The notes beneath the pieces are model-generated. The model did no database searches, was not told the origin of the DNA, and was given only the letters and a program-made list of their open reading frames with translations. DNA of 64,000 nt from NCBI GenBank assembly GCA_027486585.1, contig JAIXOU010000068.1:1-64000 (forward strand), in the 5' to 3' direction. This DNA comes from Verrucomicrobiaceae bacterium. GTDB lineage: Bacteria > Verrucomicrobiota > Verrucomicrobiia > Verrucomicrobiales > Verrucomicrobiaceae. Both the position numbers and the translations under genes were made by a program. Positions 25,410 through 29,763 of the stretch are shown here, one piece after another; within the stretch, counting starts at the first letter, position 1, and each line of letters begins with the position of its first letter.

Positions 25410-26198
25410 TCAATCTCCGCCTTCGGCGTGTTCTTGGACACCGACGAAGGCTTCCTTCGCAGCGGCGAGGGCGTAGTCGCGATTCAGTTTGGTGATCCAG
25501 CGTACGCTGATTTCTTTCGGGCAGGCGGCCTCGCACTCATACTGGTTGGTGCAATTGCCGAAGCCTTCTTTGTCCATCTGGCGGACCATGCCGAGGGTGC
25601 GGCGGTCTTTTTCAGGCTGGCCTTGGGGCAGGGAATTGAGCTGGCCGGCTTTGGCTGAAACAAAGAGCATGGCACTGGCATTTTTGCAGGAGGCGACACA
25701 GGCACCGCAACCAATGCAGGCAGCGGCGTCCATGGCGGCATCAGCGACTTCTTTGCCAACGAGGATGCTGTTGGCATCAGGAGCGGCTCCTGTGCGGACG
25801 GTGACGAAACCGCCCGCCTGCTGAATGCGATCAAAGGCACTGCGATTGACCATGAGGTCTTTGACGACGGGGAAGGCTTTGGCGCGGAATGGCTCGACCC
25901 AAATGGTGTCTCCATCGCGGAATTTACGCATGTGAAGTTGGCAGGTCGTGGTGGCTTTTTCAGGGCCGTGGGCGATGCCGTTGATGGTCATGGAGCACAT
26001 GCCGCAGATGCCTTCGCGGCAATCATGGTCAAAGGCCACTGGATCGCCGCCATCCTGAATCAGGCGCTCGTTGACGATGTCCATCATCTCCAAGAAGGAG
26101 GCATGATCGGGGATCTCACGTGCTTGAATATCCTGGAAATGACCGGGCTGACCTTGATTCTGACGCCAGACTTTGAGTTGGAGGTTGAGGAGTGACAT
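25410..26198 (-). CDS. sdhB: Succinate dehydrogenase / fumarate reductase iron-sulfur subunit
   Basis: 262 residues. Ligands for the 2Fe-2S cluster are C60, C65, C68 and C86 ([10 protein letters not shown]). The C-terminal clusters are bound by [11 protein letters not shown] (C161-C171) and C216, C222 and C226. It passes electrons from the FAD subunit SdhA to the membrane cytochrome SdhC in the TCA cycle. It is on the same strand as sdhC and sdhA, but two unrelated genes separate it from sdhA, which is unusual. Confidence 0.95.
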
Positions 26199-26224: not shown

Positions 26225-26806
26225 TTAGGCCGATAGTGAGACTTCGATTTCCTCGCTGATCTGGCGGAGGTTTAAATGGATCCAGCGTGTGTCGCCGACA
26301 TAATAACCGAGGGCTTCAGTGGCGCGTTGCTGGAGTTGGGCGGTGGTGAAAAAGCGCTTTTGGGCGAGAGCTAGGATGTCTGCCTGATCATTGGTGGAAA
26401 AGCGGGCGAGCTTAGAGACGGCTAGATCAACTGGGCAAAAGACATGGAGTTGAACAAGGCGGCTCTCATTGCCAATGCCCATCCATTCGACACAGCTCTC
26501 GCGATGGTCAGGATGCAGTAGGGCAAATGTGTCGTTATAAGTCGGGTCAAAATAGATGGTGGAGCGTTTTCCGTCCTGTCGAATGTAGTCCACGATCAAC
26601 TGATCATAGGGCAATAGAAGTCGCTTAGAGAAGGTGGCGTCCACGTCTTCCGTGTATCGAGTTCCACAGTGGAAGTGCACGGCCATGCCTCCAGCTAGAT
26701 ACATCATGAGCGGTTCACCCTGGTAATCGCAAGCGCGCAAAATCTGATCAATGCGGTCAAGCATTTCACTCAAAGCTGTGGTGAGTTCTGGATGAAGATC
26801 ATGCAT
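26225..26806 (-). CDS. Nucleotidyltransferase-fold protein (DUF6036-like)
   Basis: 193 residues. [19 protein letters not shown] fits the nucleotidyltransferase pattern: a GG turn, then DxD metal ligands after a short helix. A later [25 protein letters not shown] matches the helical part of DUF6036 / AbiEii-like enzymes. Such proteins are often toxins of type IV toxin-antitoxin or abortive-infection systems; here that is inference. It overlaps the upstream 95-aa gene by 8 bp, so the two form a coupled pair. Both sit inside the succinate dehydrogenase operon. Confidence 0.7.
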
Positions 26807-27086
26807 GGCGAAGCTGTCTTTTCAGCTGGCTGGAGAAGCGCAAGGCGTCGAAACGCAGATCTCGGAGCAATGAGCCTAATTTCTGACTGCATCCAGGAAG
26901 CAAGGTTTCAGCGAGGTTCACGAGCTTTTCGCTATAACCGTACCAATCAGTGCCTGAGAGGAAGAGGCAGATGGCTGCCATCTCATTGGGCGGAATGGGC
27001 TTCGATTCCAGCCAAGCAGCTTGCTCAAACGCGGCCTGCTGGCACGCGCAGAAGTCGAGTAACTGGGCTTCGGAATCGCGATTCAT
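26799..27086 (-). CDS. Small partner protein of the nucleotidyltransferase, unknown
   Basis: 95 residues, soluble and mostly helical (QLLDFCACQQAAFEQAAWLES, KLVNLAETLLPGC), with a basic C-terminus ([11 protein letters not shown]). It is not recognised. Coupling to the nucleotidyltransferase gene by an 8-bp overlap suggests a partner or antitoxin role by analogy with AbiEi/AbiEii pairs. No clear DNA-binding motif is visible. Confidence 0.6.
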   Translation of the reverse strand: MNRDSEAQLLDFCACQQAAFEQAAWLESKPIPPNEMAAICLFLSGTDWYGYSEKLVNLAETLLPGCSQKLGSLLRDLRFDALRFSSQLKRQLRHA

Positions 27087-27096
27087 GAATGATGAA

Positions 27097-27468
27097 TTAC
27101 TTGTAACTGCGGACGCTGAGATGGACTTCCTCGAAGGTGAGCTGCTCTTTGTTCAGTTTCGGCTTGGAAAGGTCACCGGTGTGCTCCCAAGCGGCAGCAT
27201 AACAGTAGTTTTCATCGTCGCGCTTAGCTTCGCCATCGTCGTACTGATGTTCAGTGCGGAAGTGACCTCCGCAGCTTTCTTCGCGGTCCAGCGCATCGTG
27301 GCAGAGCAGTTCGGCAAACTCCATGAAGTCGGCGACACGGCCGGCTTTCTCAAGCTCAGGGTTAGCAGCGGCGCCAGAACCTGGGACTTTGACGTTGCTC
27401 CAAAATTCTTCACGCAGTTCAGGGATGCGTTTGAGAGCTTCGGTGAGGCCTGCCTTGTCACGAGCCAT
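27097..27468 (-). CDS. sdhA: C-terminal part of SdhA, downstream of in-frame TGA
   Basis: 123 residues (GMARDKAGL..., RVADFMEFAELL, ESCGGHFRTE, ending VHLSVRSYK). They are the C-terminal domain of the SdhA/FrdA flavoprotein. The segment lies in the same frame as the upstream ORF, separated only by TGA-GGC; the ATG at 27468 is probably an internal Met, not a true start. It must either be read through with the upstream part or be non-functional. See 27472-29013. Confidence 0.85.
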   Translation of the reverse strand: MARDKAGLTEALKRIPELREEFWSNVKVPGSGAAANPELEKAGRVADFMEFAELLCHDALDREESCGGHFRTEHQYDDGEAKRDDENYCYAAAWEHTGDLSKPKLNKEQLTFEEVHLSVRSYK

Positions 27469-27471
27469 GCC

Positions 27472-29013
27472 TCATTTATCCCAGACCATGAGGCCGAGTT
27501 CGCGGTGGAAGCTGTCCACGCTGCGTTTGCCCTTAATGTTAAGGAACTTGTTGGTGCGGCCCTGGGCGTCTTCGAGAGCTTTAGTGAACTCGGGGTGGCT
27601 GGTGGTGACGTTTCCTGGGGTCTGAGTGACGAGGTAGGGAGCAATGGTGGTCGGAATGACGAAGTAACCATCTGCCAGACCTTGCATGAGGGCGCTGGCT
27701 CCGAGGCGGTTAGCGCCGTGGTCGGAGAAGTTGGCTTCGCCAAGGACGTGCAGGCCGGGGAGGCTGCTCATCAGATTGTAATCGACCCACAGACCGCCCA
27801 TGGTGTAATGCACAGCGGGGTAGATACGCATCGGCTGTTTGTAGCCGCTTTCACCGGTGATCTTTTCATACATCTCGAAAAGATTGCCGTAGCGTTCAGC
27901 GATGGTTTTTTGGCCGAATTGACCAATGGCTTCGGCGAAGTCGAGATAGACGCCACGTCCACCCGGGCCAACGCCGAGACCGGCATCACAGGCTTCCTTG
28001 GCGGCACGGCTGGAGATGTCGCGTGGGGCCAAATTGCCAAAGCTAGGGTATTTGCGTTCCAGGAAATAATCGCGATCGGCTTCTGGGATCTGAGAGGCAG
28101 GCTTGCCGATGTCCGCTTTGTTTTTCGGTACCCAGATGCGTCCGTCATTGCGCAGAGACTCTGACATGAGGGTGAGCTTGCTTTGATAGTCACCACTGAC
28201 CGGAATGCAGGTCGGATGGATCTGCGTGTAGCAGGGATTGGCAAAGTAGGCACCCTTGCGGTGAGCCCGCCAAGTGGCCGTGACGTTGCAACCCATGGCA
28301 TTGGTGGAAAGGTAAAACACGTTGCCGTAACCACCGGTGCAGAGAAGCACCGTGTCAGCGGCATGAGCTTCGATCTTCCCGGTCATGAGGTCGCGGGTGA
28401 TGATGCCCTTGGCATGTCCATCGACGACGACGACTTCCAGCATTTCCGAGCGAGTGTGCATTTCCACACCGCCACGAGCGACTTCCTTATTCAGGGCCGA
28501 GTAAGCGCCGAGCAGAAGCTGCTGGCCGGTTTGGCCACGAGCATAGAAGGTGCGGCTGACTTGAGCACCACCGAAGGAGCGGTTGGCTAGGCCGCCGCCG
28601 TATTCACGGGCAAAAGGCACGCCCTGAGCGGCACATTGGTCGATGATGTTGACGCTCTCTTCGGCCAGACGATGTACGTTGGACTCACGGGCACGGAAGT
28701 CACCGCCTTTAACGGTATCGTAAAACAGACGATGAACGCTATCACCGTCGTTCTGGTAGTTTTTAGCCGCATTGATCCCGCCCTGAGCTGCGATCGAATG
28801 GGCGCGGCGTGGGCTGTCTTGGAAACAGAAACATTTGACCTTATAGCCCAGCTCAGAAAGCGTGGCCGCTGCGGATGAACCTGCTAGGCCGCTGCCGACG
28901 ACAATGACGGTGTATTTGCGCTTGTTCTTCGGATTGATGAGCTTGGAGTCCTGCTTGTGCTTGGACCATCTGAGAGCCATTGGGCCGGAAGGAGTTTTTG
29001 AGTCGAGTGACAT
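27472..29013 (-). CDS. sdhA: Succinate dehydrogenase flavoprotein subunit, interrupted by TGA
   Basis: The N-terminal 513 residues of a flavoprotein of about 638 aa. FAD binding starts at [30 protein letters not shown] is the flavin-attachment region, and [15 protein letters not shown] and [12 protein letters not shown] are dicarboxylate-site segments. The ORF ends ELGLMVWDK, then TGA (27472-27474), then GGC ATG continuing in frame into the C-terminal domain at 27097-27468. As I recall homologues, a Cys (TGC/TGT) stands at the TGA position. Explanations are sequencing error, recent nonsense mutation, readthrough or recoding. It is preceded by sdhC, with sdhB further downstream. It oxidises succinate to fumarate on the cytoplasmic side. 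Confidence 0.93.
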
Positions 29014-29049: not shown

Positions 29050-29763
29050 TTAACGGCCGTAACCAAAGACGAGGATGGCGATTGGGATGGAGCAGTTGCC
29101 GACGAGAATGAGAAGGGCAAATGCATGGCCCAGCTTCTTAAACAAAGGCTCTGTGCGGTGAGTGGAGAGTCCCAGAGTCTGGAACAAGCTGGAGAAACCA
29201 TGGCTCAAATGGCTGCTCAGGAGAAGCATGGCAATGACATAAAAAATGGAAGCAGGTGCCCAGGAGAAGCCGTCGATGACCATTTTGTAAACATTGTGCA
29301 CAGTGTGGCCGTGCAGGTCATAGCTGTAGAGGGAAGGATTGTTGTATTGATTACCCACACGCACCGTGAAGTGCAGAAGGTGATACACGATGAAGGCAAG
29401 AATCGTCAGACCACTCCAGATCATGGTGCGGGAGGATTTGCTAGAGACTTGGGAAGCAACCTTGCCGTAGGCATCGATGCGAGCCGCGCGGTTTTGCTTG
29501 GTCAGTTGAATGGTCGCTACCACATGAATGCCGACGGCTGCCAGCAGGCCCAGTCTTGCGATCCAGACTCCTCCGCCGTGAAGAGCGGTTTGCAGCATGT
29601 GTCCATATTCATTGATGGCTTCGGGTCCGACGAAGACCAATAAATTGCCAATCATGTGGCCGAGGACAAAGATTAGAAGGGCTGCACCGGTCAGGGCAAC
29701 GAGGATCTTCTTGCCAATGGAGGAATGGTAAAAACGGGAAAGGGAATCAAAAACTGCGCTCAT
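29050..29763 (-). CDS. sdhC: Succinate dehydrogenase cytochrome b558-type subunit
   Basis: 237 residues with five hydrophobic helices, as in the single-subunit di-heme b558 family. Candidate heme-ligand His residues are in LGHMIGN, VGIHVVA, VYHLLHFTVR and LSSHLSHGF. It anchors SdhA/SdhB and passes electrons to quinone. It is first in the minus-strand operon. The roughly 200 bp upstream, shared with the cupredoxin gene, should hold the promoters. Confidence 0.93.
   Translation of the reverse strand: MSAVFDSLSRFYHSSIGKKILVALTGAALLIFVLGHMIGNLLVFVGPEAINEYGHMLQTALHGGGVWIARLGLLAAVGIHVVATIQLTKQNRAARIDAYGKVASQVSSKSSRTMIWSGLTILAFIVYHLLHFTVRVGNQYNNPSLYSYDLHGHTVHNVYKMVIDGFSWAPASIFYVIAMLLLSSHLSHGFSSLFQTLGLSTHRTEPLFKKLGHAFALLILVGNCSIPIAILVFGYGR

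Follow-up and report, generated by a model that had tools for sequence, protein, structure and literature searches.

A private in-frame TGA at a conserved cysteine codon of an otherwise intact sdhA, with no sign of recoding

The closest described counterpart of the gene reported here is the SdhA of succinate:quinone oxidoreductases with a b558-type SdhC (NF005749/TIGR01811). The sdhA in the window (the whole 64,000-nucleotide stretch of Verrucomicrobiaceae DNA analysed) belongs to the same family over its whole length, and the gene set is also sdhC-sdhA-sdhB. In the relative of solved structure, 9lay chain A, the motif WDKCGM contains a cysteine; the gene here has TGA instead. A TGA at the cysteine site of homologues is the point shared with bacterial selenoproteins, in which UGA is read as selenocysteine. 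Unlike them, this genome has no selA that we could find, no SelB match over the cut-off and only ordinary tRNAs among its tRNA-Sec matches, and the TGA is neither followed by a significant hairpin nor common to relatives. The locus also resembles a nonsense mutation or a consensus base error, in that a single base is changed, in one assembly only, and the rest of the gene is intact; it is unlike the usual examples of either in affecting a core gene for which no spare copy was found. We conclude with high confidence that the TGA is a private one-base change from TGC at a cysteine codon of an otherwise intact, conserved sdhA, and that recoding plays no part in it.

The features of the locus are collected in Table 1. 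Translated, sdhA has 638 codons before its final stop, among them the TGA, which is the one internal stop. Profile searches matched the first half of the product to positions 5–516 of NF005749 (957.3 bits against a cut-off of 866) and the second half to positions 519–641 of the 641 in the model (174.3 bits), so that the family match is full length, with the first half over the cut-off. The Pfam domain PF02910 covers SdhA residues 503–637 and thus spans the stop. The preliminary description of this DNA, which saw two open reading frames in a common frame, separated by TGA GGC and together making a full-length SdhA of about 638 residues, was therefore correct on both counts.

Table 1. Features of the sdhA locus, with positions in the window.
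Feature	Position	Strand	Remark
sdhB, iron-sulfur subunit, intact	25410..26198	-	NF005746
Two small genes between sdhA and sdhB	26225..27086	-	
sdhA	27097..29013	-	Interrupted once; rest full length
ORF, last 123 residues of SdhA, C-terminal domain	27097..27468	-	ATG opens the ORF three bases past the TGA
In-frame TGA, sdhA codon 514	27472..27474	-	Cys (TGC/TGT) in 29/29 same-genus relatives
ORF, first 513 residues of SdhA, FAD-binding part	27472..29013	-	
Mild cluster of private changes just before the stop	27472..27620		sdhA codons 465–514
sdhA codon 509, ATG (Met)	27487..27489	-	Private C-to-A; Leu in each of 39 sequences from relatives, with some genomes represented by two
sdhC, cytochrome b558 family, intact	29050..29763	-	TIGR02046

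One of the two small genes between sdhA and sdhB encodes a DUF6036 nucleotidyltransferase of 193 residues, and the other is a 95-residue ORF with no Pfam match. Their occurrence at this position is patchy: both are present in 7 of 29 same-genus relatives and the 95-residue ORF without the DUF6036 gene in two, while 20 have neither, and there the gap between sdhA and sdhB is 22–48 nt. They may possibly form a mobile or toxin–antitoxin-like pair.

Alignment of codon 514 showed TGC in 26 and TGT in three of the same-genus relatives. A second set, comprising 80 loci of a species-genome collection, has TGC in 58, TGT in 10 and a valine codon in 12, that is, cysteine in 68/80; the two sets were gathered by different routes and partly overlap. 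The three closest relatives, whose SdhA proteins are 99%, 98% and 98% identical to this one, all have TGC. The statement in the preliminary description that homologues have cysteine at this position is thus borne out, with valine as the exception. A stop inside SdhA was found in this genome alone among 56 genomes, and again in this genome alone among the matches listed for 386 genomes of the order, 350 of which have a match at the threshold. Of 387 genomes sampled from the phylum, a pattern search for the TGA motif picked out two, this one and G683; since the pattern consisted only of Trp-Asp/Glu-Lys before TGA, other contexts would be missed. The G683 match was rejected as an unrelated sequence, its best similarity to SdhA having an E value of 0.079. 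We also rejected a TGA-bearing match in the relative G002, where NadB ends naturally at this TGA, preceded by the same RRY terminus.

The gene was under strong purifying selection along its length until recently, as judged from codon differences. Compared with the relative G056 there are 77 synonymous and seven non-synonymous differences, the stop included. When these are polarised with G003, 37 synonymous and six non-synonymous codons are private to this genome, and 35 and one, respectively, fall on the G056 branch; downstream of the stop, the private codons are two synonymous and no non-synonymous. With six private non-synonymous codons to one, the branch does not look perfectly ordinary. 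Codons 468–514 hold four of the six, and there is a mild clustering of private changes near the stop (eight in 78 nt, permutation P 0.04), including Leu509Met, 15 nt before the stop. This hints weakly at constraint having been relaxed or at a locally poor consensus. Transfer of the stretch 489–514 from another relative was considered and rejected, as no single one of the 39 sequences has the private bases.

We then consider how isolated the stop is. G056 is 97.0% identical to this contig over 50.3 kb of alignment. When its ORFs were compared with the contig, 48 of 57 matched, and five were flagged as containing stops; in the reverse comparison 48 of the contig's 50 ORFs matched and none was flagged. 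One flagged ORF lies antisense to sdhB and was rejected as an interrupted gene. On our reading, two more can be set aside, as their stops precede the likely start codon, and another, whose partial match of 104 residues lies within a short repetitive region, is taken as non-coding. Read in this way, sdhA appears to be the only gene with a real internal stop in the roughly 50 kb common to the two. A wider scan of 1.29 Mb of this genome for stops flanked by coding sequence gave 27 candidates including sdhA (11 TAA, 10 TGA and 6 TAG). Twenty of the others were compared with Pfam; 12 had a match, in no case crossing the stop, and eight had no Pfam match. Interrupted genes are therefore not abundant, and TGA is not in excess among the stops.

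The preliminary description had listed error, fresh nonsense mutation and selenocysteine recoding among the causes without choosing between them, and of these the first two still stand whereas the last has found no support. We consider it somewhat probable that the TGA is a consensus error, or a minority variant, in the assembly. Against this, nothing elsewhere in the stretch points to poor quality, the comparison with G056 revealed no disrupted gene other than sdhA, and there is no over-representation of C>A among the private changes that would speak for damage along the contig (40/473 here compared with 49/536 in the relative).

It is possible, if rather doubtful, that the stop is instead a real and very recent nonsense mutation. 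It would then remove the C-terminal domain of SdhA and probably inactivate the enzyme. Two observations weigh against a real mutation: no decay is seen downstream of the stop, and no spare copy of sdhA was found. The preliminary description had reasoned that a second intact sdhA would make the interrupted gene a simple pseudogene, and our search of the genome recovered only one other SdhA match, of 29% identity, which is NadB, L-aspartate oxidase (791.9 bits against a cut-off of 629). The gene is thus not a pseudogene backed by a second copy that we could find; at a genome completeness of 97.23%, it is possible but unlikely that one lies in the part that is missing.

In this genome UGA acts as a stop, with recoding not involved. 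The release factor RF2 is present (489.7 bits against a cut-off of 370), and of the 774 stop-to-stop frames that reach 250 codons or more, 351 end in TGA. The RF2 gene itself, prfB (L197, G000:C8:14213-15465), has the usual in-frame TGA at its CTTTGAC programmed frameshift site. Frameshifting at such a site depends on UGA being a stop. Among 43 distinct tRNAs none has a UCA anticodon; this tRNA set is incomplete, as scoring covered 150 of 208 candidates and brought up no tRNA for Asn or Ile-GAT. A genome with reassigned UGA, in which it is no longer a stop, would be expected to have lost or altered RF2 and to have many in-frame TGA codons, and this genome shows none of these features. General reassignment, which the preliminary description had excluded, is rejected here too: RF2 is present with its UGA frameshift site, no set of TGA-interrupted families was found in 1.29 Mb, and none of the 20 further candidates compared with Pfam has a family crossing its stop.

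A real TGA with SdhA still being made, either as a split or as a leaky flavoprotein subunit, is on the whole quite improbable. In the split form, ribosomes would terminate at UGA and begin again at the AUG three bases further on, and the enzyme would work as two chains, of 513 and 123 residues, that assemble. The arrangement UGA-GGC-AUG does place a start codon beside the stop, and the absence of decay in the second part would fit; but the same AUG is an internal methionine of the unbroken gene in relatives, and so it is not there for the sake of restart. The break also lies within PF02910, and relatives have a single-chain SdhA. We regard this arrangement as very unlikely. Partial readthrough by a near-cognate or suppressor tRNA, yielding enough full-length SdhA, seems more unlikely still. 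UGA is a leaky stop, the part after it is intact, and the tRNA set has the gaps described above, all of which speak for readthrough; against it stand an RF2 that scores over its cut-off and has the UGA frameshift site, the lack of a UCA anticodon among the tRNAs found, the lack of TGA-interrupted families and the lack of a conserved stimulating structure at the TGA. Nothing favours restart or readthrough over a private nonsense change. No counterpart was found in those parts of the literature available to us on sdhA and UGA readthrough, on succinate dehydrogenase and selenocysteine, on stop-codon errors in MAGs, or on the Prosthecobacter debontii genome.

Profile searches for the selenocysteine machinery gave no match to selA in this genome (97.23% complete); this search exceeded its cut-off in one of the 14 genomes used as controls. 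For SelB there were eight matches, none over the cut-off (best 192.5 against 242.25 bits; controls over the cut-off in 2 of 14); the best of these sits in a 400-residue frame beside tRNA genes and is probably EF-Tu. The search for tRNA-Sec, in which 150 of 859 first-look candidates were scored and controls were over the cut-off in 5 of 14 genomes, gave seven matches, of which one narrowly exceeded the gathering score (48.1 against 47). ARAGORN identifies this one as tRNA-Ser(tga) and the other six as Leu, Cys, Gly, Ser, Ser and Trp tRNAs, and all seven were rejected. The inverted repeat TGAGGC...GCCTCA is indeed present, beginning at the TGA, and is completed by the TGC-to-TGA change itself. 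The 55 nt from the TGA do not fold significantly when compared with dinucleotide shuffles (z −0.46; an equal or better fold in 67 of 200 shuffles). In three close relatives the region takes a different fold, without the hairpin. The judgement in the preliminary description that the repeat is far too weak for a SECIS element is borne out. Insertion of selenocysteine at the UGA under the direction of such a hairpin, for which the conserved cysteine site and the repeat are the points in favour, is close to refuted and has next to no chance of being correct: it would need selA, selB and selC all to lie in the missing part of the genome, and the valine found at codon 514 in 12 of the 80 loci makes a catalytic cysteine or selenocysteine unlikely.

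The private one-base change at codon 514 thus shows that a single base at a cysteine codon can mimic selenocysteine recoding, and four checks (the codon in relatives, the selenocysteine machinery, RF2 and paralogues) return the case to the ordinary. Were the stop real and tolerated, it would be unusual for a core respiratory enzyme to have withstood it.
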